DNA of 64,000 nt. It comes from Periplaneta americana. Its lineage: Eukaryota > Arthropoda > Insecta > Blattodea > Blattidae. Where the stretch lies: assembly GCF_040183065.1 (NCBI RefSeq), contig NC_091132.1:164886102-164950101 (forward strand), read 5' to 3'. The translations under genes and the position numbers were made by a program. Numbering within the stretch: the first letter of the stretch is position 1; every line of letters begins with the position of its first letter. Of the stretch, positions 13,380 through 64,000 are shown piece by piece. The notes beneath the pieces are model-generated. The model was not told the DNA's origin. It worked only from the letters and a program-made list of their open reading frames with translations, and made no database searches.

Positions 13380-14896
13380 AGAATTGAAATGTGCTGTGGA
13401 TGTGATAAAAGTATTGAAAATTGGTTTATAGCGCCACATTGACAGTGATAAAAGTGTGCCTTAAACGTTCATTGGCTGATGGATACCGGTACTCTGTATT
13501 GACCGATTTTTTTTAAACAGTTTACTAGGGCACCGACTATTTCGCATCTTCGAAGTTGTTATAAGTATAATATTAATGTGAGTTACTTACAATGCTGCAC
13601 ATTTTCCCTTTGCAAGAAGGAGCATGATACGAGAATTAAACAGTGATAGAATTAGATTGGCGAGAATTAAAAAAAAAAAAAAGGAAATTATACTGTAACC
13701 CATGAACGAAAAATCCAGTACAAACGGCGCAGATTTTAGCATCCCTGATAAATGAGAAATTACAGTCCTCTTCTCATAGTTATTTCCTGTTGGCAAGCCC
13801 GATTCTGATATTGACTTAATTAGTAATGCAGAAGTCTTTGTGATTATTTTGGAAGTGAACATCGTTGTATTTATAAGTAATTTGTGATATTAGTGCATTC
13901 TGAAGGATTGTGTATATTCTCTACATTGGTATTTATTTGTTATGGAACATACCATTATTGATGCCCGCTATTCAGTGCTGTGACACAGTACAAATAAGTA
14001 TAATACAATTTTTGTCATTCTTGGTTCCTTTACGAGACAGACAATTGTTTTATATGAAACACTTCATAGCGTATTTCGAAAAAGCTATTGAATTAATTCC
14101 CAACGTGCGCAGTCAGTTTAAGAGACCAATGTATTGTGATAATTATTGGTTGAAAGTATTTTAGTTTTGTCCTTAAAATGTGCACAAATTTGATCCGACA
14201 AATTTAAATTTCTTTTTGCAAAGGAATTTTAAAACGTAATGCAGTATGACAAGTTTATAAAGTTTGTTGCATGAATAGAGATAAATATACGGGTTTAAGC
14301 CCAGGTACCCTGGATAGCTGGCGTGTTCGAAACGACGGATGAGAAAACGAGAAATATAAGCGCAACACACACAATTTATTTTAAAGACGTCTCGGGAAAT
14401 TTGATTTCTTGTGTGTGAGTTTACCAGTTACCAGTGGGAGCGAACTATTTCTAATTTCCTGAAGAAAATGCTTCCAGTAGGACAAACGGAGTTTTTTTTC
14501 TTATTATTAAGTTGATTTGTATATCGTAAAAAAAACTTTTATTAATTCCTGTGTTCACAGAATATTTAATTAAAATTAAATCAGAAGAGTTTGAAATTAT
14601 TATTTTTAACTTCGTTTTACCAAAAATATCATATCGTGTTTTTACTTTTGTCTGCGGAGTTTTAAATGTTTTAAATATTTTTAACATGAAATAATCATTA
14701 TTATTTTCGTTCTCCAGAATATTCAGATGAAATGAGAGTGTAGAAATATTTCTTAATCTCTTAATTTCATTTTGAAATAAGCGTATCTTATTGTCTATAT
14801 TCTCTGAACATTTAATTAAGATTAAGTTGCATTTTAATTTTCCAAGTTTGTGTTAACATGGCATGAGCTGTGTTCATTCTCCATTCTTTGAGATTA

Positions 14897-15285
14897 AACT
14901 CAAAAAATTAAACAGTAGCTCAAATATATTTTTTCTTATGTGAATAGAAACTATATAGCCTACATAGTACAATGACTTTCTACAACCCTACTTAGAACTA
15001 GCCATGTGAAGGGGCTATTCAGGAGCACACAACCTGATGTGCACTTGCTACGGGGTATATTATCAGAGAATGTTTTATAATTTGAATTTTTTTTAACTCA
15101 AAAAAATTAAACGGTAGCTCATATGTATTTTTTCTTATGTGAATAGAAACTATATAGCCTACATAGTACAATGACTTTCTACAACCCTACTCAGAACTAG
15201 CCATGTGAAGGGGCTGTTCAGGAGCACAACCTGATGTGCACTCGCTACGGGGTATATTATCTGAGAATGTTTTATAATTTGAATG
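14897..15285. repeat. Tandem duplication of ~198 bp, copy 1 only
   Basis: The segment starting AACTCAAAAAATTAAACxGT occurs at 14897 and again at 15095. Both units include TAGCCATGTGAAGGGGCT and CTACGGGGTATATTATC. Copy 2 has a single unit (about 53130-53320). Confidence 0.85.
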
Positions 15286-16049
15286 TGTACTCTCATCAGA
15301 CTGATTCCAGTGTAATAAGTTTAAATGTTTCAGGAAAATGAATGGCATTCATTGTTATTTAGTTTTTCACATAATTTGGACTAATTTACTTGCCACCAGT
15401 GCTGTCATGGAGGCCATATGTTACCATACGTCGTATGAGAACCTACAATTTTTTTAATTGAATGGGAAAAAGAAAATTTTGTCTGTACAGAGCAATCTGA
15501 CATATGGGTAGCTAAGTTTAGTGCGCGAAGATCTGTACAAATCTTAGATCATCTCTTGCTGTTCCCAATGTATTTTGTTTGATGTTCATAAACAAAAATT
15601 GGCCACCTCTGCAGCACTGGAATCCAGAATTATATATAATAGTGGTTTAAAAACAAGAAGTGCTGCAAATATACCTATACTCCAAGATTCATCGACACAA
15701 GTGTGCATCTACGGTAGTGTTACATGGCGTATTCTTTAAATCAAGCTTGTTGTACAATTAAAATGTAAAGCAAAACAATTTCTTGACTTGTTTGATATAA
15801 AAAAGCATTAAATGTCAGTCGGAGAGATAAAGAGAGGAGAGTAAAATATATTTCAAGGTAGAAAACAAGGGGTGGGGTGTATGGCCAAGAGAAAAATTAC
15901 CACGAGAGCACTGGTTGCCATGATGCACTACCACTATCTCAGTACTACAGCTCAACTAATATTATGACTAGTAACTATAAGTGGTAATGAAAAGCTGGTG
16001 TATTATATGAGAGAACTATATGATATGTAAGCAGTTGTATCCCAACTTG

Positions 16050-16140
16050 TTCTGTTAACTCAGTGGTTATGGTCATGGAGGGATAAAAGAACATCACATT
16101 CGTAGGGGTTCGAATACTGGCCAGATCAAAAATAACTGTA
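16050..16140 (+). repeat. tRNA-like SINE head or tRNA pseudogene
   Basis: An A-box-like TTAACTCAGTGGTTATGG and a B-box-like GGGGTTCGAATACTGG are spaced as in a tRNA. It is shared with copy 2 (54108-54190), so it predates the duplication. The acceptor stem does not pair cleanly, so it is not a working tRNA. Confidence 0.5.
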
Positions 16141-16310
16141 AATTGTAAAATAGAATATGTTAGAACAAGAAGAAGAAGGTAACTTAGAAAGTAATAGCGA
16201 GAAAAAATAGATCTAGAAAATTAAGAAAACTTTATTTTCTACTAATAAAGATGATTTAGGACGTATTTTTTTTTACACTTTGAAACCTCCAATTTTCACA
16301 ATAGCCCAGG

Positions 16311-17642
16311 GCCATTTTCCACAAAAGCACGGTCTAATACTTTGTTAGTTATTAGTAAAAGTTATTGAATAGTAAGTTATTGTAACTTTCTGTTTCACAA
16401 AATAATATACAACTGTTGTATAGTGTTAGTGACGTCATAAAAGTGTATGGCCAAAGAACAGCGGTTTGCCACATGACGTCATACTTTGAATTAGTTATGT
16501 TCACCTCCTTGGTAATAAATTCGTATTTCAGGATGCAAGGAAAGGTTTATCATTATTCTTATAATATTTGTCTGATTTATTTTATGAGGAATAATGAGAA
16601 TTTAAGTATTCTATCATATATTTTTCAATATTTAAACGTGATTTTTCACTCTAAGTTCGCTGTCGTAATTTTCCGTAAGTAATTGCAATGTGCAATTAGT
16701 TAAAATTGCAATCTGGAGATGGTACAAGTATCCATATCCCATATTTGTTTGTTATTGAACTAAATTATTTATTTTTAAGGATTTAGTAACAAGGAAAGAC
16801 ATTGTGTTCGGTACATTTAACTTATTTTGGGAGCAATGATAGGTAGCGAAAACCGGTTACGAGAGCCAGCTATAATGGCTGGGGGAATCATCGTGCTAAC
16901 CACACGATACTTAATTTCTGGTTGGATGATCGTCCACTTCTGCTTCGGCATATGGATGTGAGGCTGTCGGTCATGGTCCTTCATGGGCTGTCGTGCCTCG
17001 GGTTATTACATTCAAACTCAGGTAAAAGAAATACACAATAAGGAGTTGTACTCAAATTGTATGTCATGGTGTAGCTGTTATCACAGAGTACAATATTATC
17101 TAACTCTGAAAACTTTGAAATTGCATGCATATCTGCTATGCTATGATATTGGCTACCATTAATGAATCAGTGAAGTGTATTTACAAACTGATGCTTAGGT
17201 TACTTCGATTGGTTGTATGTTGTAATCTATACCTAATGTTAGTGAAGGGTTCTTTCTGCTTCAACTCCACTTAACCTAAAACGTGCATTATACTGAAGAA
17301 CATTTATTCCTCTTTTGATATACACGAATTTTCTCACTTTTACTACCATTAGACTACATATTTCAGTCAACTAGTTCCTTGAGTTACACAAAAAGTTCAC
17401 TGGTATTTAAAGTTATTAGCATTCCTACAGTTGTAGGTAAATCTGTACAAATTACAACGCTTGACTAATACTAATATTTAGGTGATACAGAACAATGAAA
17501 AGTCGCTTGTACTGTTTTAACTATGGAGTAATTAAGTACAAAAGTACACGAAAACCTTTGTAGAACACAATTCTATGAATAACTATTAGTTACAACAGAA
17601 TATACTTGTAATATATTAGACGATACTTTTGTGGAATAGGGC
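16311..17642. mobile_element. Candidate TIR element, copy 1 only (~1.3 kb)
   Basis: The left GGGCCATTTTCCACAAAAGC and the right end, read on the other strand as GGGCCCTATTCCACAAAAGT, are inverted repeats of about 30 bp that continue weakly inward. No clear target duplication was found. The inside has no transposase but includes another dispersed repeat at 16845-17010. The superfamily is unknown. Confidence 0.5.
16845..17010 (+). repeat. Dispersed insect repeat
   Basis: The stretch from CCAGCTATAATGGCTGGG through GTGCTAACCACACGATAC to GATCGTCCACTTCTGCTTCG resembles a short interspersed sequence I have seen in several insect genomes. The class (SINE or LINE tail) is not certain. Confidence 0.45.
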
Positions 17643-18069
17643 CCACGTAGCTGAGATAAAATGCATTATATCCTATATCCCTGGCAAATATTCTGTTGTG
17701 TGTTGAGGATACACGGACAGAAGGTCTACAGAAAATATGTCCAATGACATTATGTCTACTTTTTTGCGTAGCTCTATAATATAATAGTAGCTCTACAGCA
17801 ACTTATCTACATGAAGTAGGTCTACTCTGTATTTTAGTCTACCTGAAAAAATGTCTAAAAATGAAAAAGCCTACTAGAAAAAGTCTACTAATGAATTAAT
17901 TGTTATATAACACTTATTTAATTATGTTACTGAAGTTTTAAGGAACAAATTTATAGCACTTTATTAAGGAGAAATAACAGAAATTTATAATTACATCCCA
18001 TCTTCATTCCCATGTATAGGTTGACGTAATTCCAACCTATAGCTTAGACTCCTCAGATAAATTTTCACT

Positions 18070-18640
18070 TCACCCCTGTCTTCACGTGCTTGATAATTGT
18101 CCACCATTCTTTCTACTTGCTGTTGATTTATTTGGTATGACTTCTTTATTGGGTGTTTACATTTCCGTGGCCAGCCAAAATTTGAGTGAGAAGAATTTCA
18201 TTGTCTCTTTGATCTTCCCTGATGTGATGGAGGAACTTCCAAATTCACGCATGGTGCGTCACAAGCATTTTGTGAAATTTACAGTGCCATCCCTCGATAA
18301 TATTGATCGTGCATTGTGGTCTATCTTGCACTTAATCATATACATTTCACACATTTGTTGGATAGCGTGATGGTACCGCTTGGCATCTTGCGCCCCTTGG
18401 TGTCCCTCTAACATAGATTTTTTCAGTGTAACTGGCTGTTGGTTCAACTCCAGCACATACATCCTCATGTAATAAACCAAACACTTCTTCTACGTCGTCT
18501 GAGTCAATGAACGGCATAGCAATGAGCTTCCTAATTTCATTTCGAACTGTTAAATCATCATCGTTACGGTAGGCTTCTTTAAGTCCTTCGTTTACAACTC
18601 TCTTCCAAATCGACTGGCCGAAGTGGAAGAGGCAGCCTTG
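18070..18640 (-). pseudogene. MULE (Mutator-like) transposase fragment
   Basis: The minus strand, read through frame breaks, gives FGQSIWKRVVNEGLKEAYRN, RKLIAMPFI, then NIIEGWHCKFHKMLV and IWKFLHHIREDQ. These are the post-catalytic blocks of MULE-type transposases (C/H-FCQALWRKVQ..., 'N-S-EGWH' and 'W-FL--L'). The catalytic N-terminal half is missing. It lies in the block absent from copy 2. Confidence 0.7.
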
Positions 18641-18859
18641 ATCACAGTTCTTGGAGAAGCTCTATTTAATACAATTAAAGTTACAATTACAATATAATGT
18701 AAGTAGCAAACACTATCTGGTTGATAAAGACTAATCAGTATTTTGTAGAAGTTAAAAACAAGCAAGGAAGTAGTTGCTGAATTAGACATTAAAACTAGAA
18801 TAATTGTGTAGAGATGAAATTATTGGAGATTGAATTAGTTTATGCTACAATAAGATTTA

Positions 18860-19265
18860 TTTACTTATTTATTTTAATTTAATTAATTTATTTCATTTAT
18901 TATTTTAATTTAATTAATTAATTTATTTAATTTTATTTTATATATATATATATATATTTATTTTATTTATTTAATTAATTAATTGATTTATTTACTTAGT
19001 TACTTATTTAGTTATTTATTTATTTTATTTTACTAATTTATTTATTTATTTAATTCGTTAATTTAAATTCATTTATTTATTTAATTTAATTAATTTAATT
19101 ATTTAATTTTATTTCATTTATATATTTATTTTATTTATTTAATTAATTTATTTATTTACTTAGTAATTTATTTATTTTAATCTATTTATTTATTTATTTA
19201 TTTAATTCGTTTATTTAAATTTATTTATGTATTTAATTAATTAATTTATTTATTTAATTTTATTT
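18860..19265. repeat. TTTA/TTAA-rich low-complexity block
   Basis: About 400 bp of imperfect TTTA and TTAA units, present only in copy 1. Confidence 0.9.
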
Positions 19266-19269
19266 ATAT

Positions 19270-19810
19270 AAGGCAAATCACAATCACAAGTGCTATGGAA
19301 TTCTTTGATGCTGCACTGGCAGTGTCTGAGAAAATCAAAGTTATTTTTGTACCAAATGAGAAAATAGATTTATGCAGACAGCAGAAGCAACATGATTGGT
19401 CGAAGACTAACTGTCCCCATTCCTGGTCTTAAGAATTTCCACTATTTTCTACATGATTCTACAAGAAATGTGTTCCAAGCTTGTGAAATCAATACTGAAG
19501 AATACCAGAGACTATTTAAGGATATGTACGTCTTTCGCCACCAGATACAGAACAGAATATAGGCTTGAATACCATATTTAAAAGAAATGATTTTGTTGTT
19601 GTAATTAATGAAAATAATGAATTTTATGAGATTGTGACTGATATCAATGGGAATGGAGAGTTCCGTGTACGGGTTATGCATCCAGCCGGATGTGGATGGG
19701 TATGGCCACAAATGGAAGATGAAATATGGTACTCACCTGATGACATTGTTAGAAAGATAATTGCACCTGTACCTGGCAATACAAGAGGACTCTTTTCATT
19801 TTCAATTTAA
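19270..19810 (+). pseudogene. Transposon-derived ORF fragment, family not identified
   Basis: An upstream frame reads SAMEFFDAALAVSEKIKVIF. The next ORF (19565-19810) reads FKRNDFVVVINENNEFYEIV, then GCGWVWPQMEDEIWYSPDDI and ends NTRGLFSFSI. This SH3-like tail with W-WP-ED---Y---DI resembles C-terminal tails of uncharacterised transposon proteins in many invertebrates. Frame breaks separate the pieces. It is absent from copy 2. Confidence 0.5.
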
Positions 19811-20699
19811 ATATTCATTTGTTACGTCCGTTACAATCGTTGAGTTACGTCCGTTACGCTTATATTTCTTTGAAGAATGCCAAGGTAATCAGAGTGGTAT
19901 ACTTTTAAAATAGTACCACCATAACATGTATGATGTCTACTTTAAAGTAAAAAAAAATTGGAATAAATATCTGCTGTACTTTCAGAGAAATCAGACACTT
20001 CATTTAGTGTAGAAATTACCTTGTCCTTTCTTTGTTACATCCGTTACGTTTCAACTATAAATTATTATATAAAGACAACAATGGTTAGGTTCATTCACAC
20101 TTCATACATTGATGCACTGGTATTAGATACATCTGTGGTAAAATTTGTTTTTATAGATGTGTATTAAGTTTAACGGTGTGGCAAATAGATCCCTCGTCTG
20201 GTAGCTCGGCAAGAACAAAAATGGCGAACTATACTACCTACCTAGACTTTATAGAGCCTGGACTTCCTAAGACGTAAGCAAAGAGGAGGAGTCAGGCCGG
20301 GAATAACAGCATCGCGACTATAGTCACGGATTAATAACAATAATATAATAACTTACGAGGGACTAGACCTACGTTAAGTCAGCAATATTAACAGAATAAG
20401 GAGTGAGTTAGTAATGATAAATAATTGATATGAAATAACTTAAGAAAGAAGACGAAAAATTCAATCTGTAAACCAGTTAAGACCTATTTATTAGCAAAAT
20501 ACTTATAGAGTGTTTTGAAAGTTACCGGTATTTATTTCTTTCAAGAGTGTAGTTCTATCCTGAAAGATGTCAATATTGCTCAATTTATTATAGGAGGAAC
20601 AGATTCTAAGAAGTTGGAGAGTAATTGTAACAACATGTCCTAGCATAGTTTATATTAAATGTTTTACTTGGTACATGTATTGCTATCCTAGACAGTAGA

Positions 20700-21235
20700 T
20701 GACTATTTACAGAACTAGTTAATAAATTATGAAGGCATTTTATATCAATATTATTTCTTCTGTGTTGCAAACTTTCAAAATTAAAGAGAGACAAAATAGA
20801 TAAGTACAAAATACTACTTTCATTATTTCAGAAGGGATAGTAGCCAATTGATTTAACAAACAAAAATCTAATGACTCTGTTTTGAACACTCTCAATTTTG
20901 TTAATGTATTTAATTTGATAGGGGTTCCATACAGTACTGCAATATTCAAGTTTTGATATAACTAATGAAAAAAACAGAATTTTTAAATTATCTTGAGAAG
21001 AGAATTTTGTGAGAGATAAATCCTAGAAGTTTAAGAGACTGAGACACAAGTTCAAGTATATGGCCTAAATCTTTTACCGTGTCAGTCATTTCCAATAATT
21101 TTCCACCCATTGAGTATCTGTAAGTAACATAAATTTTTTTCCTAGCATATATCACATAATGACATTTATTTAAGTTGAAATATAGTTTATTCTTCAGTGA
21201 CCACTTCTATAACTCGTTTAGATCTCTCTGAAGGA
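20700..21235 (-). mobile_element. LINE fragment in copy 1
   Basis: The minus strand carries the broken segment with VLYGTPIKLNTLTKLRVFKT and SLILKVCN. The better copy at 56590-57115 shows VKDLGIRF, FSSHI and FIYRHTTKFSS, non-LTR reverse-transcriptase thumb motifs. Both duplication copies share it. Confidence 0.7.
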
Positions 21236-21528
21236 AGTGACCGTCATTAGGTGTCATAGATAATTGTTTACGAGAAGGCGTGTCTAAACTAGTCTTAGTT
21301 ACTGGGCAAGTGTCTAGTAAGTTAGTGTGCGATGCGCATTTGAGATTATTTTGACAGTCCCTGATACTAGCACGTAGCGAATTGAGGGATCTTTGCAGGG
21401 AATTGTGAAAGAAAATTGAGTACGAGGTAATGAATGCGATGTGAATTACTTCCTAGCATCTTGTTATAACTGTTTCTCAACAGCACAGTTTCTGTAATCA
21501 CTGACAGTTACATAACCTTTTATTTCAG

Positions 21529-21629
21529 TTGTAATGGATGTGATCAAAATGGAACCTGCACTTGATCTGCTGGGCTTACAACTACATGATAACACATACG
21601 AAATGGAAGGAAATGATCCTTTATCTGAG
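21529..21629 (+). CDS. Zinc-finger gene B, exon 1
   Basis: The acceptor TTTATTTCAG is followed by five leader bases and ATG at 21534. The exon encodes 32 residues (start MDVIKMEPALDLLG, end NDPLSE) and the donor GTAAAG follows at 21630, phase 0. It joins in frame to either exon 2. The acceptor before the ATG implies an upstream non-coding exon, not located. The acidic leader with an IKMEP motif is typical of insect multi-exon zinc-finger proteins; a role in transcription control is inferred from the fingers. Confidence 0.8.
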
Positions 21630-21714
21630 GTAAAGTGAAATATCTTACTATGTGTTTTGTTTATATGTTTCTGTAACAGTGACAGAAAAGCACTCATTTC
21701 TACATTTCACACTT

Positions 21715-22305
21715 TATGTCCTTACTTACTTATGGCTTTTAAGGAACCCAGAGGTTCATTACCTCCTCACATAACTCCGCCTTCGGTCCCTATCCTGAGC
21801 AAGATTAATCTGTCCCTACCACCTTCCTCATATCTGTTTGAATATTACCCTCCCGTCTACGTGTCGGTCTCCCAAAAGTTCTTATTCCTTCTAACACTCT
21901 ATATGATATTTGAATTCGCTCATACGTGCTACATGCCCTGCCCATCTCAAACGTCTGGATTTAATGTTGCTTATTATGTCAGGTGAAGAATACAACGCAT
22001 ACAGTTCTGCGTTGTGTAACTTCCTCCATTCTCCTGTAACTTCATCCCTCTTAGCCCCAAATATATTCCAAAGAACCTTATTCTCAAACACCCTTAATCT
22101 CTGTTCCTCAAAGTGAGAATCCAAGTTTCACAACCATTCAAAACAACCGGGAGTATAACTGTTGTATAAATTCTAACTTTCACATTTTTTGACAGCAGAC
22201 TAGATGACAAAAGCTTCTCAACCGAATAATAACAGCCATTTCCCATATTTATTCTGCGTTTAATTTCCTCCCAAGTGACATTTATATTTGACACTTTATA
22301 TCCAG
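21715..22305 (-). mobile_element. LINE fragment in intron 1 of gene B
   Basis: Minus-strand pieces read ILPVVLNGCETWILTLRNRD, then RLRVFENKVLWNIFGAKRDE and RRLRWAGHVARM. These are the C-terminal blocks of the common arthropod endonuclease-reverse transcriptase family. The same insertion is at 57630-58240 in copy 2. Confidence 0.85.
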
Positions 22306-23762
22306 TGGACTAAATTAGAACCCTTTGGTCTTGCTGTTTGGTATAAGGCGTCATGAATTGGTGTGGCATTATGAAGTACTCGTTGGTTCTACTCTCTCCA
22401 TGAGAAGAAATTTTTACAGTAAGATCAGCTGTTCAGTGTGACCGCTACTCACCCTGCATCACGATCCACAGTTATTCATGTAATCCGGTCCACAGCTCCA
22501 CTTTGGTTGTGTTTGGTCCCTCTGTGTGAAACTTAAATGAATATTGGATTTCATAATTATGATCGAGATTTGGCTCCATGCCCCATAACAGTTTGTTCTG
22601 TATTATAACTTCTAAGGCATAATTATATTCAGCCGAGGTACTTTCTCATGTTCTACAACAACAACCTTCTTTCACTCACTTGATCAGTATTTATGGAGTA
22701 CATGCTACCACTTATTGACCTTAACTACATTAAATATGTGGAAAGCTTACAAGAACATTGATTTGAGATCTGCTTCTGTTATTGATGTGCTTTTTACAGG
22801 GTTGTCAGATGTCCCGATTTGGCGGGACATATCCCGATTTTCATATAAAAGTCCCGGGTCCTGCTTCGAGGCGGGACACAAAAAGTCCCGCTTTTAGAGA
22901 ATTAACATCACTTGAATAATTGATTCTAGGCCTAAATAAGTACATTAAATTACAATTAATATTCTTAGCGATGTAGATTTGCACATTGAAAAAAAAATAA
23001 ACGATTATTTTGGCGAGTGTATGATTTGTAACAGGGAATTCAGTGGTGAACATATTTCTAAACATTAAAAAAGATACTGTTCATCAGAAATGCATGGCAC
23101 AGAGAATGGACAGAAGCTTGTTGAAAATGCTAAAGTGCAGTGATAATTATTTAGGAAGCTCTAAAAATGTATTTATGTACTATATGCTAAATGATGGGTT
23201 TGGAGCAGTAATATGCTATGGCACAAATTAAATGAGAATTTAGGTATAAATAAATTTTATCGTTGTTATCAATTAATAAACATTGAAATATAAATATTTT
23301 GTCACATCTGATGCCAGACAGAGCTATTATTAAGTCATTTAAGTTAATAATTTGGCGTAACATATTATTGCCACAAGCCCTTCAGAAGGACGCCAGAGAA
23401 ACGTGACGTAACTCATAGTCACTTGGATAGCTGTATCTATAAAATGAATTTTATTCAAATTGCAATAATTTTGAGATTCATATTATTTTTTTCAGCTGCG
23501 GGATAATTTTTATTTATTAATTTTTTTATTTATTTCGTATAGTCATGAAAATATCAACTCTGCCCAAATTCATATCACTCTTTTTTTAAGACAAAACTTA
23601 AGTACTACGTATGGTGAAAAAGGATGACACTATAAGAAACATACAATATATATAACACAGTTGTATGAACACTAAAAATGATGATAATTAAGATTGGAAT
23701 CTATTCAAATATATAAAGACAAATTTTTAACCCTCAAAATTTAAATGACAAAGCAATTCATG

Positions 23763-23763
<1 letters not shown>

Positions 23764-23793
<30 letters not shown>
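23764..23793. repeat. Poly(A) run
   Basis: About 30 A inside the foldback insertion; could be a retrotransposition tail or simple repeat. Confidence 0.8.
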
Positions 23794-24224
23794 ATTCTCT
23801 TTGATCTTTATATTACTTCCGATTTGAACAGGAAAAGATTAACGTAGTATCAATGAACGCAATTTCTGTCCCTTCCTTCATCGTATTCAGTCTCCTTTAA
23901 GCCATGCTACATCGTGGTCGAACACCTGAACCAGCGGTGAGTCTTGCGTCCAGATTATAATTCTGTCCATTCTTCTTTTTCATTTACTCTTTGTATTTTT
24001 TAAATGTGATACATGTTTTTTACAATTTGATAGTTCTTACTTCTTATGATGTTAATTTATTTTAAAACCAGTTTTACCTATTTTATAATTTTTATATTTT
24101 TGTATAGGAGACACATTGGTCATTAAGCTGTTAACTTTTTCTAGCCTTATAAGAATTAAATATTATTATTCTGACATCGTATATTTTTTGTACCTTATTT
24201 TTAAACATAACCATCCACGAATCT

Positions 24225-24226
<2 letters not shown>

Positions 24227-24279
<53 letters not shown>
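24227..24279. repeat. (TA)n microsatellite
   Basis: About 26 TA units inside the foldback insertion. Confidence 0.9.
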
Positions 24280-24283
<4 letters not shown>

Positions 24284-26165: not shown

Positions 26166-26235
26166 GTAAGTGGTGCACTGTCAATATTCATAGACCGTGT
26201 GTATTTCAAACTATAGTATATAGGAAATTAACATT

Positions 26236-50690: not shown

Positions 50691-50692
50691 CA

Positions 50693-51067: not shown

Positions 51068-51073
<6 letters not shown>

Positions 51074-52412: not shown

Positions 52413-54107
52413 CCTTAAAATGTGCACAAATTTGATCCGACAAATTTAAATTTCGTTTTGCAAACGAATTTTAAAACGTAATGCAATGTGACAAGTTTAT
52501 AAAGGTTATTGCATGAAGAGAGACAAATATAGGGGTCTTAAGCCCAGGTACCCTGGATAGTTGACATGTTCGAAACGACGGATGAGAAAACGAGAAATGT
52601 AAGCGTAACCCACATCATTGATTTTAAAGTCGTCTCGGGAAATTTGATTTCTTGTGTGTAGGTTTACTGGTTACCACTTTAAAAATGAAAGTGGGAGCGA
52701 ACTATTCCTAATTTCCTGAAGAAAATGCTTCCAGTAGGACAAACGGAGTTTTTTTTATTTCTAATAAGTTGATTTGTATATCGTAAAATAAGCTTTTCTT
52801 AATTCCTGTGTTCACCGAATATTTAATTAAAATTAAATCAGAAGAGTTTAAAATTATTATTTTTAACTTCGTTTTACCTAAAATAGCATAGCGGAGTTTT
52901 AAATGTTTTAAATATTTTTAACGTGAAATAATCATTATTATTTTCGTTCTCCAGAATATTCAGATGAAATGAGAGAGTAGCAATATTTCTTAATCTCTTA
53001 ATTTCATTTTGAAATAAGCGTATCTTATTGTCTGTATTCTCTGAACATTTAATTAAAATTAAGTTGTATTTTAATTTCACAAGATTGTGTTAGCGTGATA
53101 TTAGCTGTGTTCATTCTCTGTTCTTTGAGTTTAAACTCAAACAATTAAACGGTAGCTCATATGTATTTCTTCTTACGTGAATAGAAACTATATACATACA
53201 ATGACTTTCTACAACCCTACTCAGAACTAGCCATGTGAAGGGGCTGTTGAGGAGCACACAATCTGATGTGCACTCACTACGGGTTACATTATCTGACAAT
53301 GTTTTATGATTCGAATTTTTTATACACTGTAATCGGTAATCTCATCAGACTCATTCCAATGTAATAAGTTGAAATGTTTCGGAAAAATGAATGGCTTTCA
53401 TTGTTATTTAATTTTACACATAATTTGGACGAAGTTACTTGCCATCAGTGCTGTTATGGAGGCCATACGGGACCATACATCGTATGAGAACCTACAATTT
53501 TTTTAATTGTATGGGAAAAAGAAAATTTTGTCTGTACAGAGCGATCTGACATATGGGTGGCTAAGTTTAGTGTGCGGACATCTGTACAAATCTTAGATCT
53601 TCTCTTGTTGTTCTAATGTATTTTGTTTGATGTTCATAAACAAAAATTGACCACCTCTGCAGCACTGGAATCCAGAATTATATAAAATAATGGTTGAAAA
53701 ACAAGAAGTGCTGCAAATATACCTATACTCCAAATTCATCGAGACAAATGTGCATCTATGCTTGTGTTATATGGTGTATTCTTTAAAGCAAGCTTGTTAT
53801 ACAATTAAAATGTAAAGCAAAACAATTTCTTGACTTGTTTGATATAAAAAAGCATTAAATGTCAGTCGGAGAGATAGAGAGAAGAGAGTAAAATATATTT
53901 CAAGGTAGAAAACAAAGGGGTGGGGTGTATGGCCAAGAGAAAAATTACCACGAGAGCACTGGTTGCCATGATACACTACCACTATCTCAGTACTACAGCT
54001 GAACTGATATTATGACTAGTAACTATAAGTGGTAGTGAGGAGCTGCTATAATATATGAAAGAACTATATGATATGTAAGCAGTTGTATCCCAACTTGTTC
54101 TGTTAAC

Positions 54108-54190
54108 TCAGTGGTTATGGTCATGGAAGGATAAGAAGAACTTCACATTCGTAGGGGTTCGAATACTGGCCAGATCAAAAATAACTGTAA
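54108..54190 (+). repeat. tRNA-like SINE head, copy 2
   Basis: Counterpart of 16050-16140, with TTAACTCAGTGGTTATGG and GGGGTTCGAATACTGG retained. Confidence 0.5.
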
Positions 54191-54284
54191 ATTGTAAAAT
54201 AGAATAAGTTAGAACAAGGAGAAGAAGGTAACTTAGATAGTAATAGGACGTATTATGTTATATCATATTACGTAAATATGCTTG

Positions 54285-54370
54285 ACATGTTTGCAATCGT
54301 CGTGTTCGATCAGTAATGCAAAATTAATCAAATCATTATCACCATGCACCATGCTTAGTAATGCAACTAT
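54285..54370. repeat. Fragment of the repeat at 38948-39050
   Basis: Matches 38948-39050 in the same orientation and is not present at the equivalent place in copy 1. Confidence 0.6.
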
Positions 54371-54376
54371 TCATAT

Positions 54377-54628
54377 CCACAGCTCTGGAGTAACGGTCAC
54401 CGCGTCTGGCCGCGAAACCAGGTGGCCCGGGTTCGAATCCCTGTCGGGGCAAGTTACCTGGTTGAGGTTTTTCTGGGGTTTTCCCTCAACCCAATACGAG
54501 CAAATGCTAGGTAACTTTCGGTGCTGGACCCGGACTCATTTCACCGGCATTATCACCTTCATTTCATTCAGGCGCTGAATAACCTAGATGTTGATACAGC
54601 GTCGTAAAATAACCCAATGAAAAAAAGA
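54377..54628 (+). mobile_element. SINE, family A
   Basis: Head with GGAGTAACGGTCACCGCGTC, B-box GGGTTCGAATCC, full body and GTCGTAAAATAACCC tail. No clear target duplication, perhaps because flanking repeats were rearranged. Confidence 0.9.
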
Positions 54629-54639
54629 TAAAGACTAGT

Positions 54640-55018
54640 CAGTATTTTGTAGAAGTTAAAAACAGAGCAGGAAGTAGTTGCTGAATTAGACATTAAGCCT
54701 AGAATAATTATGTAGAGATGAAATTACTGTAGATTGAATTATTTTATGCTACAGTAAGATTTATTTATTTAATTCACTCAACAATGTAATTACAGAGTAG
54801 AGAAAGGTGAAAATAACAGTAGTAATACATATAATAATGGTAATTTAAACTTAAACTGTTACAATCCGATACTACTCAACAATAGATATCAAGCAAATAT
54901 TACATGTAAATCTCGGTAAACAAAAACAAAAGTATTTACAGTATAAAGAAAACTTAGATTATATTAAAGTAATAGAGCAAGTGATGAACTGCAAATAACT
55001 AGTCACAGATTAATAACA
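54640..55018. other. Copy 2 spacer, no gene recognised
   Basis: 54625-54775 matches 18722-18870. The remainder to 55005 has no counterpart in copy 1 and shows no coding or repeat motif. Confidence 0.4.
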
Positions 55019-55025
55019 ATAATAC

Positions 55026-56184
55026 CACAGTCTACTATATACAGTCGCGAAGCTCAATATATAGTAAAAATGCAAACATGGGTAGTTGCCCACCACTAGG
55101 ATCGCTAGTATCGCCTCATCATCATCATCACAGATCTCTCCTAGCAGATTGCAAAATATGTTACAGTTTCGTTGTGTTCTTTTGGAAAAGTTAACACCTT
55201 CCTTCCATTATTGAAATATATAATGGATAAAGTTCATTTATTATTTAATGAAGTATATTAAATTCCACCATAAACTCGAAAATACCTGCAAGAAATAAGT
55301 TAATATTATTTTTGTTTGTGCAAAACGAACTGAAATTTGCTATAATCGCTTCACTCATTCAAGATTATAGCGATAATGAACTATGTAACCAATAAATATT
55401 AATTTGCATTTCCCTTTACAACAATAATATAATAACAATAATAATGGAAATATGAATTAATGGGAGTAACTTGCGTGTACCGGTACTTGTAGTGTAGGCT
55501 TACGTAGTTAGCATAGTGGGATGAGGTTACGCAATAATAATCACACCAGAATTGGAAATAAAACGTATCAATAAATTTTATTGTAACAAACTTACTTTTT
55601 CTACGTCTCTAGTAAAGTAACAAATAAAAATAACAACAAAATTAACAGCTATAATTAAAAATATATCCTTTGAAAAAAGTAGGCCTAAGTTGTCTGAAAA
55701 TGTACAATTATTCAAGGAATCAGCTGATACAGACGTAGAATTAGTGCAAAGCTTGTGTTTCTCAGCAGGTAATAACAGAACAGGTTTATTTGAAACATCA
55801 AATAAAGTTAGAACTGCATTCCAGATTAATTTATTTTTGTTTTCATTCATAAATTTCGTGTTTTCGAAATGAAGAGAGCAAAACTTTATATTTTTATAAA
55901 GATATGCTTCATTCTTTGTCATTAAATCTTCCCTCCTGCTGTTTATTAACCACTTTTTGCATCTACAAGTAAAATAAGAAATAGATGTTAGGATTTTTCT
56001 TCACGAGCATCAATGCGAAATGCACAACGACCTAGCACTCGATGGAAATACGACTCAGTCAACTCTAAATCCAAAGTCGACCATGGACAGTCTATTGTTT
56101 CTAGTTGCTAACCGCTTGGTGCGCTTTATCTGGAGATTTGCAAAAAATCACCTGAAGCTTCGCGACTGTATGTAGTAGACTGTG
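55026..56184 (-). mobile_element. P-type (THAP) non-autonomous element, 1159 bp
   Basis: Inverted ends CACAGTCTACTATATACAGT (left) and CACAGTCTACTACATACAGT (right, other strand), about 30 bp with GCGAAGCT following. Flanked by the exact 7-bp duplication ATAATAC (55019-55025, 56185-56191). The empty site is in copy 1 near 20337-20347. It contains a THAP-domain exon, which points to the P superfamily. Confidence 0.82.
55578..55960 (-). pseudogene. THAP-domain exon of the P-type element
   Basis: After an acceptor-like TTTTACTTGTAG, the frame reads KKWLINSRREDL, then NIKFCSLHFENTKFMN and LIWNAVLTLFD. The pattern CS-HFE----F-N and the AVPTLF-type ending (here AVLTLF) is the second half of a C2CH THAP zinc domain. 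The frame runs on for about 60 more residues with a hydrophobic end. No transposase catalytic domain follows. The N-terminal Cys pair should be in an upstream exon, not found. Confidence 0.75.
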
Positions 56185-56589
56185 ATAATACAATAACTGA
56201 TGAGGGACTAGACCTACTTTAAGTCAACAATGTTAACAGAATTAGGAGTGAGGTAGTAATGATAATAAAATTGATATGAAATAATTTAAGAAAGAAGACC
56301 AAAAATACAATATTCAAACCAGTTAAGACCTATTTATTAGCAAAATACTTATGGAGTGTTTTGAAAGCTACCGGTATTTATTTCTCTCAAGAGTGTGGCT
56401 CTATCCTGAAAAATATCGATATTGCTCAGTTTATTATAGAAGGAACAGATTCTAAGAAGTGGAGAGTGCTTGTAACAACATGTCCTAGCATAGTTTATAT
56501 TAAATGTTTTACTTGTCCTACAGTTCTCTCTGGGTACATGTATTGCTATCCTAGACGTAGATGACTATTTACAGAACTTGTTAATAAAT

Positions 56590-57115
56590 TATGAAAACAT
56601 TTTATATCAATATTATTCCTTCTGTGTTGCAAACTTTCAAAATTAAAGAGAGACAAAAGAGATGAGTACGAAATACTACTTTCATTATTCCAGGAGGGAT
56701 AGTAACCAAATGATTTAAGGAACAAAAATCTAATGAATCTTTTTTCAACACTTTCAATTTTGTTATATTTAATTTGATAGGGGTTCCGTACAGTACTACA
56801 ATATTCAAGTTTTGATCTAACTAATGAAAAAATATATAATTTTTAAACTATTTCGAGATGAGAATTTTGTGGTATGTCTATAGATAAATCCTAGAAGTTT
56901 AAGAGACTGAGACACAAGTTCAAATATATGGCTGGAAAAATCCATATTATAAGTGAATCGTATGCCTAAATCTTTTACCATGTCAGTGGTTTCCAGTAAC
57001 TCTCCACCCATTGAGTATCTGTAAGTAAAATAAGTTTTTTTTCCTAGCATATATCACATAATGACATTTATTTAAGTTAAACCACAGTTTATTCTTCAGT
57101 GACCACTTTTATAAC
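56590..57115 (-). mobile_element. LINE fragment in copy 2
   Basis: 56817-57050 reads YSMGGELLETTDMVKDLGIR, then FSSHIFELVSQSLKLLGFIY and SSRNSLKIIYF, the RT thumb region of a non-LTR element. 56602-56808 holds the following, frameshifted part. Copy 1 counterpart: 20700-21235. Confidence 0.82.
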
Positions 57116-57430
57116 TCGTGTAAATCTCTCTGAAGCAAGTGACAGTCATTAGGTGTCATAGATAATTGTTTACGAGAAGGCGTGTCTAAACTAGTCTTAG
57201 TTACTGGGCAAGTGTCTAGTAAGTTAGTGTGCGATGCGCATTTAAGATTATTTTCACAGTCCCTGATACTATCACGTAGCGAATTGAGGGATCTTTGCAG
57301 GGAATTGTGAAAGAAGATTGAGTACGAGGTAATGAATGTGATGTGAATTACTTCCTAGCATCTTGTTATAACTTTTTCTCAACAGCACAGTTTCTGTAAT
57401 CACTGACAGTTACATAACCTTTTATTTCAG

Positions 57431-57531
57431 TTGTGATGGATGTGATCAAAATGGAACCTGCACTTGATCTGCTGGGCTTACAACTACATGATAACACATA
57501 CGAAATGGAAGGAAATGATCCTTTATCAGAG
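57431..57531 (+). CDS. Zinc-finger gene C, exon 1
   Basis: Acceptor TTTATTTCAG, ATG at 57436, 32 codons, donor GTAAAG at 57532. The protein is identical to that of exon 1 of gene B (one synonymous TCT/TCA change). Its later exons should lie past the window end. It shares intron LINE, hAT and Tigger insertions with gene B, so it came with the large duplication. Whether it has a working finger exon cannot be seen. Confidence 0.75.
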
Positions 57532-57629
57532 GTAAAGTGAAATATCTCACTATGTGTTTTGTTTATATGTTTCTGTAACAGTGACAGAAAAACAATCATT
57601 TCGACATTTCACACTTTATATCCTTACTT

Positions 57630-58240
57630 ACTTATGGCTTTTAAGGAACCCAGAGGTTCATTGCCGTCCTCACATAAGTCCGCCATCAGTCCCTATCCTG
57701 AGCAACATTAATCTGTCCCTACCATCATATCCCACCTTCCTCAAATCCATTTGAATATTACCCTCCCGTCTACGTGTTGGCCTCCCCAAAGGTCTTATTC
57801 ACTCCAGCCTCCCCACTAACACTCTATATGCATTTCTGGATTCTCCCATACGTGCTACATACCCTGCTCATCTCAAACGTCTGGATTTAATGTTACTATA
57901 TTATGTCAGGTGAAGAATACAATGCATGCAGTTCTGCGTTGTGTAACTTTCTCAATTCTCCTGTAACTTCATCCCTCTTAGCCCCAACTATTTTCCTATG
58001 AACCTTGTTCTCAAACACACTTAATCTCTGTCCCTCAAAGTGAGAGTCCATGTTTTACAGCCATTCAAAACAACCGGAAGTATAACTGTTGTATAAATTC
58101 TAACTTTCACATTTTTTGAGAGCAGACTAGATGACAAAAGCTTCTCAACCGAATAATAACAGCCATTTCCCATATTTATTCTGTATTTAATTTTCTCCCG
58201 AGTCCCATTTATATTTGACACTTTATATCCAGTAGACTAA
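57630..58240 (-). mobile_element. LINE fragment in intron 1 of gene C
   Basis: Counterpart of 21715-22305, with ILPVVLNGCKTWTLTLRDRD on the minus strand. A little longer in the middle than copy 1. Confidence 0.85.
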
Positions 58241-59132
58241 ATTAGAACCCTTTGCTCTTGCTGTTTGGTATAAGGCGTCATGAATTGGTCTGGCATTATG
58301 AAGTATGCGTTGGTTCTACTTTCCCCATGAGAAGAAATTTTCACAGTAAGATCAGCTGTTCAGTGTGACCACTACTCACCCTGCATCACTATCCACAGTT
58401 ATTCATGTAATCCGGTCCACAGCTCCACTTTGGTTGTGTTTGGTCTCTCTGTATGAAACTTAAATGAATATTGGATTTCATAATTATGATCGAGATTTGG
58501 CTCCGTACCCCATAACAGTTTGTTCTGTATTATAACTTCTAAGGCATAATAATATTCAGCCGAAGTACTTTCTCATGTTCTACAACAGCAACCTTCTTTC
58601 ACTCACTTGATCAGTATTTATGGAGTACATTACCACTTATTGACCGTACCTACATTAAATATGTGGAAAGCTTACAAGAACATTGATTTGAGATCTGTTT
58701 CTGTTATTGACGTGCTTATTACAGGGTTGTCAGATGTCCCGATTTGGCGGGACATATCCCGATTTTCATATAAAAGTCCCGGGTCCTGCTTTGAGGCGGG
58801 ATGCAAAAAGCCCCTCTTTTAGAGAATTAACATCACTTGATTAGTTCATTCTAGGCCTAAATAATTGCACTACATTTCCATTAATTTTCTTAGCGATGTA
58901 GGTTTGCACATTGAAAAAAAAAAAAAAAACGAATATTTTGGCAAGTGTAAGGTTTATAACAGGGAATTCAGTGTTGAATATATTTCTAAACATTTAAAAA
59001 GATACTGTTCATCAGAACTGCATGGCACAGAGAATGGACAGAAGCTTGTTGAAAATGCTAAAGTGCAGTGATAATTATTTAGGAAGCTGTAAAAATGTAG
59101 ATATGTACTATATGCTAAATGATGGGTTTGGA

Positions 59133-60952
59133 CACTGCCATCGTGATCTAATACAGGCCGTAAGGCAGACCACGTGACTCGCTTAACAGCTGATCGCGAA
59201 AGGCGGTCTTTCAACCATATGAATTAATTGCAGTGCATAAAGAATAACATATATTTCTCTGAAATGCAGTGTAATTGCGTCAGTAAAATTTTAAACAGTG
59301 ATTGTGAGACACTTGAGACACAATTTACTTGCAATTTAAGGTATAATATTATTTTTGGTGTGAAAATTACGTTGTTGCAGACAAAGTTCGTATGTGTAAT
59401 ACCTGCCTTTATTTCGATTAAATATTGCGTCCTTATGTGGTTAAGTGAAATTTTGGTCTTATAAACAGTAGGCTAAATATGCGTGATAATATATACGTGA
59501 AAGTGAAACATTGACTGGCATGTGAAGTAAGTTGTGATTAGGCCTAAGTGCAGCGTTACCGATGTTACTCTTGTCTAATCCATCATTGCTAGTTTACCGT
59601 ATTTGTCTTATTAAATTTAAATTATTGCGCCCTTTTTATTTGTGAATAACCTACATTATACGAGTAAATAATACGACTGATAATATACACAATTTGAACT
59701 AAAAACGAGATACATATAGTATATTACGAAAAATTATACCCTATAGTTTTCATTACTGTTACAGTATCTAGAATTGTAATTAGTTGAAATAAAGCACTCA
59801 TGCTTCATTACGAAATTCTTGCACATTCATTTATGCACGTTTCAACAATTTTTAGTTGCATCGCACGCATATTTTAATGTGTTGAAGTTATAGGTTATGT
59901 TTATACTATCAGTAATATTCGCAATTATGCATTATAATTAAGCATAACGCTACGTATAACTTATAAATGCAATTTGTCTACACTTCAATTGTATTTATTC
60001 GTTTCAGACGGTACTCCAGTCTGAAGTCTGATTAGTTTAATATGTTACAAGGGCTAATCTAGCGCTGAGGTAGTTCCCTTCGTATTCATACATCTTGCAT
60101 ATACAAATTAGTTCGGTTCGTTCAGGATTTTAATATGCCTTGCTTATAGGATCAAATGCATCTCCACAAAAAAATAAATTCAACTGTTTTCAGTTCAGAA
60201 ATTACCGGAACTATACCTCAGCGCTACTAAGTAATATAACGTATGTACATTTCATAGGAGGGACTGTGGTGAATTTTCTACCTATAAGTAAGGACGGTAA
60301 CCGTGTTCTGAAGTTTATCCTAAAATATATTCTTCTTTATTAAATCTCAAAACAGTTTTCGTTCTCAACTTTAGCCTAAAATGTTGACGCAGATAGGTTA
60401 TGTTAACATGGTAAATTCTCTTCACATAAAAATAACACAGTTTTATTTATTATTCCTGCCACATTATGCAACACATAAATGGAACTTATGCACATATTAC
60501 ATTGAATAAAAATTTAATTGTATTATTTATTTGTTCCCTACTATACTGGGTTGTAATGAAATTTCATAGGAGGGACTGTGGTAAATTTTGTACCTACAAG
60601 TAAGGAAGGTAGATGTGCTAAATTAAAATCACAATATAAATAATTCTTCTTTATTAAATCTCAAAATATCTTCCATTCCAAACTTAAAATGTTGATGCAA
60701 CCAGGTTATGTTAACATGTAAAACTCCGTTCACATTAAAATAACACAGTTTTGTAATTATTTCTGCAACATATTATGCAATAAGAAGTGTGAAGGGGTCT
60801 TATACACACATTACACTAAATAAAATTGAGCGCCGACACGCTATAAAGTAATAGATTTCACTCAGCTCCGTATACTCAAATAGAAAAGCCCGACTCATCG
60901 AGTGACGTCACACAACCTGCATTACGGCCTGGTCTAGATCACGATGGCAGTG
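59133..60952. mobile_element. Nested TIR element, 1820 bp, copy 2 only
   Basis: The ends CACTGCCATCGTGATCTAAT and (other strand) CACTGCCATCGTGATCTAGA are inverted repeats of about 31 bp (then CAGGCCGTAA). Flanked by the 7-bp duplication GTTTGGA (59126-59132, 60953-60959); copy 1 has GTTTGGA once. No transposase was recognised. The CAC start and 7-bp duplication resemble the P-type element at 55026. Confidence 0.85.
60250..60800. repeat. Two tandem ~320-bp units in the nested element
   Basis: TTTCATAGGAGGGACTGTGG occurs at about 60250 and 60569, followed in both by CTTCTTTATTAAATCTCAAA and GGTTATGTTAACATG. Confidence 0.8.
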
Positions 60953-62163
60953 GTTTGGAGCAGTAAAATTCTAAGGCACAAATTAATGAGAATTTAGGTA
61001 TAAATTAATTTTATCATTGTTATCAATTAATAAACATTGAAATTTAAATATTTTGTCACATGTGATGCCAGACAGAGCTATTATTAAGTCATATAAGTTA
61101 ATAATTTGGCGTAACATATTATTGCCACAAGCCCTTCAGAAAGACGTCAGAAAAACGTGACGTAACTCACAGTCTCTTGGATACCTGAATCTATAAAATG
61201 TCTTTTATTCAAATTACAATTTTGAGATTCATATTATTTTTTTCAGCTGCGTGATACTTTTTATTTATTAATTTTTTTTTATTATTTTTTTTGTATAATC
61301 ATAAAATTACCAACTCTGCCCAAATTCATATCACTCTTTCTTTAAGACAAACCGTAAGTACTACGTACGGTGAAAAAGGATGTCCCTCCTTGGTAGATGT
61401 AAAATCTGGCAACCCTGGCTTATTATAATATACATTAGTTCATAATCGTATTCGAGAGGGATGTTTGGTACCTTAAATCGATTTTGAAATTATTAAATAT
61501 GCTCTAGCGTAAAAAAATAGCCAAGCAGGATACAAGTAGGTATGAAGTAAGATACAACTTAATAACACTGTAGGCCTAAATGCAGATACAGTGAAACTTC
61601 ACTTAACGGACACTTCCCAATAGCGGACTCCTCTCAGTATCGGACATTTTAATATTCCCCTGCAAAATAACATTGGCCCTTATGATAAAATTTTTCCAAA
61701 TAGCGGACATTCTCAATAACGGACGCGAACACTGAAATGTATCTCCCAACAACAATTAAAACTTCCAAATAACGGACAGCGTGAAAGAAAAAAAAAAGAC
61801 GGTTGTAAATTAAATCGAATTCTAACGGAATTGTTTGCAACAATAATTATCGTGCATTTGAACGTTCTTGTAGTTTATTGAAGGTAAGCAGCACAGTTGT
61901 TAGTTGTGATACTGTACGTGAGCAGTCCGTACTTTCTTAGTTTGTCAAGTTGTGTGTTCGGAATTACAGTCACATTAAAAATGTCACAAAAACGTAAACG
62001 TTTGTGACTAAAAGAGAAAGTGGATGTTGTAAAGCATAGTGAGAAGAAGAAATTAAGTGTTCGTGAGCTGGTCACAAAGTTTAATATGGGTAAAACTCAG
62101 GTTAGTGTTGTTTATTTTATTTACAAATATTTGCTAGTACGATTTCTCTCTGGTTGAGTACTA

Positions 62164-63799
62164 CAGTGAAACCTGCCTTTGCGGTCACTTCATTTAAACG
62201 GCCACCTCTCCAAAAGGCCAATTTTTCTGGAACCAAATGTATTTTCCATAAGATCAATACAATTTCTCTCTTTATTTAGTGGCCACCTCATGCTCCAGTC
62301 AGCGGCCGGCAGGTATATTTGCATTGGAACCTGACTATAATAGTCACTGTCCAACAAAAAATCTTTTCACGAATACTGTCTGACCTATTTTTTCGATGGT
62401 TAAAGGTCAGGAAGCAATATCACATTTAGGACAATACCTAAGTTTACAACAGTACACCCTACATATCTTGGGCTTATTTGGTTACTGTTTTATGACTCTT
62501 TTGTCACTTTCCACTCCGACCCTGCACAGCTATAAATTCTTACTAGTTTTTAAAGGATTAAAACATTGACTTTTTCTATGGAAAATGTCACAGTATGTTT
62601 TAAGTCAGTAGTTAACCATTCAATTTTTTTTTCGCCTCTTTCTATCTTACTCTGTTGGGACCAGCTTTTACGAATTTTTCTTCTTTTCATTCAGTTGATT
62701 CAGAGGAACTGTGAAGTTAGTTTGAGACAGAAATCAAGAACAATAAATCTAGAGTGGTATTAAGTTTAGAGGTGAGACGAAAAATGATTGATGAAAGTGA
62801 GAAGGGAACATCTGCGAGAAAAATTGCAGAAATATTCAAATGTGAAAGGACATAAATGAACGGTATAATTAAGAATAAAGATGAAATATTAAAAGAGTGC
62901 GAGAAAAATATGTGTAGTGGCAAAAAAAGGAAAAATCTGTGTTTAGTAATGTGAATGATTTCATTTACGAATGGTTCAAGTGTCCGAGGACGACGAAATT
63001 GCCGGTAAGTGGGCCTATGATTCAAGAGAAAGCTCTTGAAATTGCCAAAGAACTCAATGTAAGCAATTTTGTTGCTAGTAATGGGTGGTTAGAGTGCTTT
63101 ACAAAACGGCATAACATCGCATTTCGTTCTGTGTCTGGTGAAGGAGGTGACATTGCAACCAATGTTACTGAAGAATGGAAAATATAGACTGCCTTCAATT
63201 CTTGCGGAATATGAACTCAGAGACATTTACAATGTTGACGAAACGGGTTTTTTTTTCAGAGCCCTCCCTAACAAAACTTTAAGTTTTAAGAAAAAAAAAA
63301 GTGTGTGAAAGGGGGAAGTTGGCAAAATACAGAATAACCCTGCTCATTTGTTGTAATGCTGTAGGAGAAAAAGAACCATTCTTAATGATAGGGAAATCTT
63401 TGAAACAGAGATGTTTGGAGAATGTTGACATGGGCTTATTGGGGTGAACTGGACTGCCAACAATAAAGCTTCGATGACATCATCATTGTTTGAGAATTAG
63501 CTATGCGATTTAAATTCCAAGATTAAACGACAAAATCGCTATGTGATCCGTGAAATTGGTGTTTCTTCCCCCAAATACGACATCACACCTTGATCAAGGT
63601 ATTATCCAGTCATTTAAACTGAGGTACCGCAAGCTAGTTGCAAGAATGGAATAGGGTGACGATTGTTGTACGCGCACAGTATTGAAAAGTCAATGAAATT
63701 CAGTATTTTCATGCTGATTCATAAAAAACCGCAACCTTAATCAAGCAGCCACCTGATAAAACGGCCATTTTACAAGGTAACTTCAGACAGGTTTCACTG
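62164..63799 (+). mobile_element. Second Tigger element nested in the first (1636 bp)
   Basis: The ends CAGTGAAACCTGCCTT and (other strand) CAGTGAAACCTGTCTGAA lie between TA duplications (62162-62163, 63800-63801). Absent from copy 1. It carries most of a Tigger transposase. Confidence 0.9.
62765..63600 (+). pseudogene. Tigger transposase, broken
   Basis: DESEKGTSARKIAEIFKCER gives the N-terminal helix-turn-helix. 62939-63187 reads NDFIYEWFKC, LPVSGPMIQEKALEIAKELN and SNGWLECFTKRHNIAFRSVS, the CENP-B-type second DNA-binding half. Near 63229 NVDETGFFFRALP marks the first catalytic Asp. The following DDE core (GEKEPFLMIGKS, WTANNKASMTS) is split by frameshifts, including poly-T and poly-A slips. 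Length is typical of the family, but it is not translatable as one frame. Confidence 0.9.
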
Positions 63800-64000
63800 T
63801 ATAAACAATCTCACTGTCTACTGTACTGTACTGTAAAATATAGTGTTGAATATGTATGAGGAATTTTAATGTACTGTATACATACTAACGATTTTCTAAA
63901 TAGCGGACACATCTCATTAACGGACATTTAATTTTTCCCCGGTGGTGTCTGCTATTGGGAAGTTACACTGTATTTATAAATAAGTGTATTCGAATTTTTT

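Follow-up and report, generated by a model that had tools for sequence, protein, structure and literature searches.

How did two collinear segments with the same zinc-finger first exon come to lie next to each other in the genome of the cockroach Periplaneta americana? We analyzed a stretch of 64,000 nt (the window; C16:164886102-164950101 in a genome search covering 3,231,669,367 bases and 91 sequences), in which three C2H2 zinc-finger genes, A, B and C, were predicted from the sequence. A sequence-only reading of the window had proposed a tandem segmental duplication of 12-13 kb that carried a first exon. Our results very probably reflect the duplication, head to tail, of a complete C2H2 gene unit of at least 30.5 kb (copy or unit 1 with gene B, copy or unit 2 with gene C) within a large tandem array on the chromosome-sized contig C16.

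The Duplicated Unit Extends beyond the Window

The segments 13377-25444 and 51070-64000 matched in nine collinear plus-strand blocks in self-BLAST, sensitive BLAST and pairwise alignment, in agreement with the collinearity described earlier for 13380-25440 and 51070-64000. Inside the window the nine blocks comprised 7,199 columns with 93.2% identity and a Kimura two-parameter distance of 0.071. Owing to a private tandem repeat in copy 1, these columns include about 195 bases of copy 2 twice. The match reached the final base of the window, 64000, and the size of 12-13 kb was therefore an effect of the window. With a flank of 80 kb added upstream and one of 120 kb downstream, it went on to 43930 in copy 1 and about 85876 in copy 2, and the copied unit is thus at least 30.5 kb long and holds a whole predicted gene. 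The chained alignment consisted of eleven blocks, with 14171-15095 and the last block outside the chain. The period between the units was 37.7 kb, and the 26 kb separating the in-window matches are mostly the rest of unit 1 and not a spacer. The two copies are collinear, have the same orientation and are adjacent on one chromosome, as is characteristic of a tandem segmental duplication.

Both B and C hold predicted exons 1, 2, 2b and 3 and a finger exon. The exons of gene C start at 57436, 64579, 69263, 78014 and about 81471; exons 2, 2b and 3 and the fingers were all found past position 64000, so the view that only a first exon had been copied had to be given up. Exon 1 of B and C differed at one of 96 nt (position 93, T/A), a synonymous change as stated in the sequence-only reading. 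Exons 1 and 2 are in phase 0, and exon 3 ends in phase 2, in frame with the finger exon. Since gene C also carries exon 2b, the internal duplication of exon 2 predates the split of B and C. Exon 3 of gene B was located by means of a cockroach peptide.

Edges, Shared Insertions and Private Insertions

Homology starts directly after simple repeats, which are (TA)n in copy 1 (13329-13376) and (CA)n in copy 2 (51028-51069). There was no leftward extension of the copy when 9-13.3 kb was compared to 44-51 kb, with two weak repeat-like matches only, and the comparison of 1-13376 to 25445-51069 gave just short repeat-like matches and fingers. Exon 1 of gene A and its upstream sequence were also among the matches to the left. 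On the right, homology stops at a transposon-like repeat in C and adjoining one in B. The duplication had been said to be visible with its breakpoints; this applies to the left one (13376/51069) but not to the right one, where both copies end in or beside repeats.

The long interspersed nuclear element (LINE) at 26236-27350 occupies the identical site, with the same 9-bp target duplication, in B and C, while the site is empty in a distant third copy, D. Its RVT_1 match and target duplication agree with the shared LINE reported before. Private insertions in each copy were likewise verified: the copy-2 insertions at 52149-52412, 59133-60952 and 62164-63799 have target-site duplications and empty sites in copy 1. 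The last of these, with a Tc5-type helix-turn-helix match, is a Tigger-type element private to copy 2, and the claim of a Tigger shared by both copies holds only for an older sequence hosting it, which we read as Tigger-like and which had no family match. A hAT element in both copies was not confirmed, as the candidate fragment tested had no Pfam match. Several transposon fragments also lacked Pfam matches, and neither the Rfam scan nor the tRNA scan of the window gave a match.

Other mobile sequences were seen. A THAP domain fragment at 55581-56000 of copy 2 (Pfam PF05485, E 5e-7) possibly comes from a P-type transposon. Retroelement open reading frames (ORFs) lie on the minus strand at 31029-34757 within an intron of gene B, and 31887-34807 is present in copy 2 too; we take them to be Bel-Pao-like, without a family call.

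Divergence of the Copies

In three-way columns with the upstream paralogue Z as the outgroup, B-C divergence (K) was about 0.065. It was near this value in both halves of the unit, and single blocks ranged from 0.054 to 0.094 when a microsatellite-holding block was set aside. A different origin of the 3' half, considered because raw BLAST identity, near 92% before 34.8 kb, fell to 85% there, was rejected: the three-way columns erased the step (0.065) and left local patches. Copy D, inverted and dispersed, comprises the unit's 5' half, with exons 1 and 2, and matches B 15631-27498. No second exon 2 was present in the 20 kb of D examined.

The Units Belong to a Large Tandem Array

The search with the exon-1 peptide gave 150 scored matches of 326 candidates, down to E 2.7 and thus with weak matches included; 77 of the 150 reached E 0.01. 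They were located on C16 (112, all beyond 149.8 Mb), C17 (31, in the first 15 Mb), C9 (4) and C12 (3). The MDVIKMEP-like start of cockroach zinc-finger proteins, which was found in this genome, was also searched as an exact DNA pattern. It occurred at 89 places, one of them encoding MDVMKMEP, compared to 0 for the reversed control. Merging both searches resulted in 197 exon-1-like sites (137 on C16, 43 on C17, 17 elsewhere), with blocks at C16:149.9-189.7 Mb and C17:0-14.9 Mb.

In the list of 150 matches, neighbors less than 45 kb apart were on the same strand in 53 of 54 cases, with a median spacing of 28.5 kb, and neighbors more than 100 kb apart in 52 of 73. Such same-strand arrays of paralogues are what a clustered C2H2 family shows, and together with the collinear adjacent copies they support the proposal that tandem segmental duplication enlarged a zinc-finger cluster. 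Nine plus-strand exon-1 copies lie at 164.634-164.944 Mb (309 kb), with genes A, B and C at the end of the row; the first five copies are spaced by 28.3-30.7 kb and the others by 14.8-77.1 kb. All 122 intact finger motifs in the 264 kb examined were on the plus strand.

Five exon-1 copies at C16:167197832-167323562, about 30 kb apart, form what is, judged by its sequence, a very young tandem array. They differ by just 0-2 bases in 216-221, and the duplication process therefore looks recent elsewhere. Copies of exons 1 and 3 were also seen in similar order and spacing at C16:180.05-181.08 Mb and C17:0-0.75 Mb (for example, C16:180696764 to 180727080 and C17:391495 to 420073), a pattern that would fit a block common to both chromosomes and several hundred kilobases long. 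The main text of the genome paper (PMC12774602) has no occurrence of "zinc finger", and no account of the array or of its N-terminus was found in the titles and abstract openings of the papers that our searches listed, subscription papers, supplements and RefSeq annotation excepted.

Finger Arrays

The fingers gave zf-C2H2 and zf-H2C2_2 matches with TGEKP-type linkers, as in C2H2 proteins, with 12 fingers in B. Nine of the ten units of C matched best to fingers 2-9 and 12 of B, and the tenth lies behind the stop of C. Fingers 1, 10 and 11 of B have no partner in C, with 10 and 11 falling in one gap of 168 nt, and the array of C has one unpaired finger. Since unpaired fingers were seen in both, the arrays differ by whole units of 84 nt. 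For the nine matched pairs the nonsynonymous divergence (dN) was 0.055 and the synonymous divergence (dS) 0.205, a ratio of 0.27. Both finger exons, in B at the stretch 39425-39500 and in C at about 81471, start inside finger 1; neighboring genes have retained a spacer there, some tens of residues long.

A Conserved N-Terminus Rich in SUMO Consensus Motifs

The 107-residue peptide of exons 1, 2 and 3 did not match any Pfam family, ZAD and KRAB included, up to E 1. The motif psi-K-x-E is the consensus for SUMO attachment. With exon 2b included, eight such motifs were present in B and eight in C, compared to means of 0.42 and 0.41 in shuffled sequences, and none of 20,000 shuffles reached the observed count. 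The fingers of B had none. Enrichment was also seen in nine of ten other exon-2 copies (P < 0.01). In an alignment of 14 exon-2 copies (of 19 places, five partial matches being left out) the eight K and E motif columns averaged 0.85 and the other 39 columns 0.66 (P 0.006).

Exon 1 was compared in 23 copies, those of A, B and C together with 20 of the 150 matches; they were picked by similarity, so that conservation is partly built in. I-K-x-E-P and the gt donor were kept in all 23, the tttcag acceptor in 22 and the ATG at the usual place in 20. Exon 1 had 93 nt in five copies. The SUMO consensus is thus enriched and conserved in the N-terminus, a motif-based feature expected of SUMO-dependent repressors. 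The best-conserved stretch between the copies, 21222-21677, spans exon 1 and both its sides; the conserved flanks are perhaps a promoter or a 5' noncoding exon.

Origin and Function of the Copies

That copy 2 is an assembly artefact, an allelic haplotig set beside copy 1, is hardly credible, and we rejected it. The copies do lie near each other on one contig, but a haplotig would require alleles that diverge by about 6.5% and were placed tens of kilobases from each other in that contig, with 26 kb of other sequence between the in-window matches. Private insertions with target duplications are found in the copies, the LINE common to B and C is missing from D at a distance of 7.1 Mb, and a stretch of 309 kb holds seven further exon-1 copies on the same strand as B and C. 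The matching assembly, PAMFEO1 (HiFi plus Hi-C; 3.23 Gb, 91 scaffolds, 17 of them chromosome-sized), was reported to have a pre-scaffold contig N50 of 42.4 Mb and 1.5% duplicated BUSCOs (PMC12774602).

Several observations weigh against one whole-unit tandem event and would fit independent copying of segments by dispersed duplication and gene conversion. Inverted and distant, D is as close to B as C is (B-D 0.059, B-C 0.065, C-D 0.0705 substitutions). Divergence between B and C is patchy in 35-39 kb: at 35.25-36.1 kb B is closer to Z than to C, and 36.9-39.2 kb is unusually similar between B and C, an unevenness that suggests gene conversion. The finger dS is about three times that of the flank, and homology ends at or next to repeats. 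No counterpart of 43931-51069 was seen in the 18 kb that follow 85876 (as far as 104000), so that a single simple tandem event is not proved. Against independent copying, which we consider unlikely, stand the similar K (about 0.065) of the two halves of the unit, the LINE that unites B and C, and the gene order and orientation kept over 30 kb. Tandem duplication of the whole unit remains our preferred explanation. Unequal crossing-over or replication-based tandem duplication would have produced the copies, transposons would then have scarred both, and the finger arrays may have turned over by whole fingers of 84 nt.

It is possible, if doubtful, that B and C are functionless passengers, mostly pseudogene units carried along by recombination. 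Gene A is broken by stops and frameshifts, and in the finger exon of gene C an in-frame stop follows the ninth finger, which means that some copies do not work. Unlike their neighbors, B and C have no spacer ahead of the fingers, the usual ATG is missing in three of 23 exon-1 copies, and between B and C more changes were seen in exons 2 (16/141, binomial P 0.013) and 3 (12/81, P 0.004) than in the flank. Exons 1 (1/96) and 2b (2/141), however, changed less (P 0.017 and 0.007; four uncorrected tests against a background of 6.15% that we set from the chained blocks). The dN/dS of the matched fingers and the splice sites kept in 22 or 23 of 23 exon-1 copies also argue for function.

Tentatively, and with somewhat less than an even chance in our judgment, the proteins might be sequence-specific chromatin repressors whose SUMO-conjugated psi-K-x-E N-terminus recruits silencing complexes in the manner of KRAB or ZAD proteins without having either domain. 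Here, too, there are counterarguments. One of the ten other exon-2 copies was not enriched (P 0.085), and exon 3 had no motif in B, C and five other copies tested. SUMO conjugation is putative, being deduced from motifs, and a motif does not prove modification. Purifying selection on exon 1 was moderate, with a median dN/dS of 0.47; among the pairs that could be used (146 of 153, from 18 of 23 copies), 24 had a ratio of at least 1. Faster evolution of the DNA-contact residues was tested in the nine matched finger pairs and not found (6/36 compared to 21/210, P 0.25), which speaks against a simple arms-race signature in the B-C pair.

Features of the Locus

The features are collected in Table 1. 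The sequence at 13588-13812 also resembled 5986-6199, upstream of gene A (61%).

Table 1. Features of the duplicated locus, in window coordinates unless C16 is given; exons are predictions.
Feature	Position	Strand	Remarks
Unit 1 (gene B)	13377-43930	+	homologous to copy 2 from 51070 to about window-equivalent 85876
Unit 2 (gene C), in-window part	51070-64000	+	about 21.9 kb more beyond the window
(TA)24	13329-13376		left edge of unit 1
(CA)21	51028-51069		left edge of unit 2, unit 1/unit 2 junction
Extension block	25256-27498 / 63800-65982
Extension block	27506-30227 / 67405-70114
Extension block	31887-34807 / 70099-73038
Extension block	34847-40578 / 76739-82611
Extension block	39608-43930 / 81486-85876
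Gene B exon 1, coding part	21534-21629	+	MDVIKMEPALDLLGLQLHDNTYEMEGNDPLSE; acceptor tttcag, donor gtaaag, phase 0
Gene B exon 2	26025-26165	+	phase 0; four psi-K-x-E motifs in 47 codons
Internal partial duplication of 22534-26235	27498-29588	+	older; three blocks with 85.7, 82.8 and 86.9% identity; yields exon 2b
Gene B exon 2b	29380-29520	+
Gene B exon 3	36040-36122	+	splice sites present; paralogues in neighboring genes
Gene B finger exon	39425-40544	+	12 C2H2 fingers; starts inside truncated first finger
Gene C exon 1, coding part	57436-57531	+	peptide identical to that of gene B
Gene A exon 1	6735-6830	+	older paralogue; 56% amino-acid identity
Gene A finger array	8033-8870	+	stops and frameshifts; predicted pseudogene
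LINE	26236-27350	-	RVT_1 match in one ORF piece; 9-bp target duplication ATTAACATT
Tandem duplication of 14894-15087	15092-15284	+	private to copy 1
Insertion of about 830 bases	23632-24463		private to copy 1; not in copy 2 or copy D
SINE-like (short interspersed nuclear element) insertion, by our reading	51269-51524	+	private to copy 2
Insertion	52149-52412		target duplication CCTTA; not in copy 1
DNA transposon, by its ends	59133-60952		inverted ends CACTGCCATCG; target duplication GTTTGGA (7 bp); private to copy 2
Tigger-type transposon	62164-63799	+	private to copy 2; TA duplication, CAGTGAAACC ends, HTH_Tnp_Tc5 match
Copy D	C16:157757001-157777000	inverted	dispersed; unit's 5' half with exons 1 and 2; 7.1 Mb off

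Discussion

The genome of P. americana, of 3.2 Gb, consists of 65.9% repeats (PMC12774602, Table 1). The duplication itself is ordinary, well-known growth of a zinc-finger cluster; what is worth following is the scale of the array and the N-terminus. This megabase-scale array contains copies of different ages for comparison: the closest differ at 0-2 positions in about 220 bp, and others have 56% amino-acid identity in exon 1. The N-terminus suggests a domain-free, SUMO-based effector. It is conceivable, but we think it rather unlikely, that the array is an independent cockroach counterpart of the KRAB system, with about 200 or more genes, tandem growth in steps of about 28 kb and a tract of SUMO motifs as the effector against abundant transposons. 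The effector would then, on this speculative reading of the sequence, have no folded domain, and its SUMO-acceptor tract would lie in phase-0 exons able to duplicate (exon 2/2b). If this were true, an insect's own KRAB-like transposon defence would become directly testable in a cockroach.

KRAB zinc-finger genes have their N-terminal module in exons ahead of one finger exon, as do the cockroach genes. The KRAB clusters belong to tetrapods, whereas the cockroach array has no KRAB domain (Pfam, E up to 1) and an insect host. The FZNF (FINZ) proteins of zebrafish have an N-terminus different from that of the cockroach proteins. The likeness lies in their arrangement, with almost all members on one transposon-rich arm, 4q (PMC10547256). 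Transposon silencing by FZNF proteins was shown by knockdown (PMC10547256); for the cockroach proteins we only infer it.

The 91 ZAD zinc-finger genes of Drosophila, 37 of them in 13 clusters, share with the cockroach array an insect host, clustering and lineage-specific expansion (PMC7655104). In contrast, the cockroach genes have no ZAD match, and their 197 exon-1-like sites lie mostly in blocks of 40 Mb and 15 Mb. Transposon repression in flies needs components of the SUMO pathway (PMC9406493). The insect system of SUMO-dependent repression by Su(var)2-10 and Panoramix (PMC9406493) does not involve arrays of zinc-finger genes, and the cockroach route is deduced from motifs; the effector route that we propose for the cockroach proteins would be the same.

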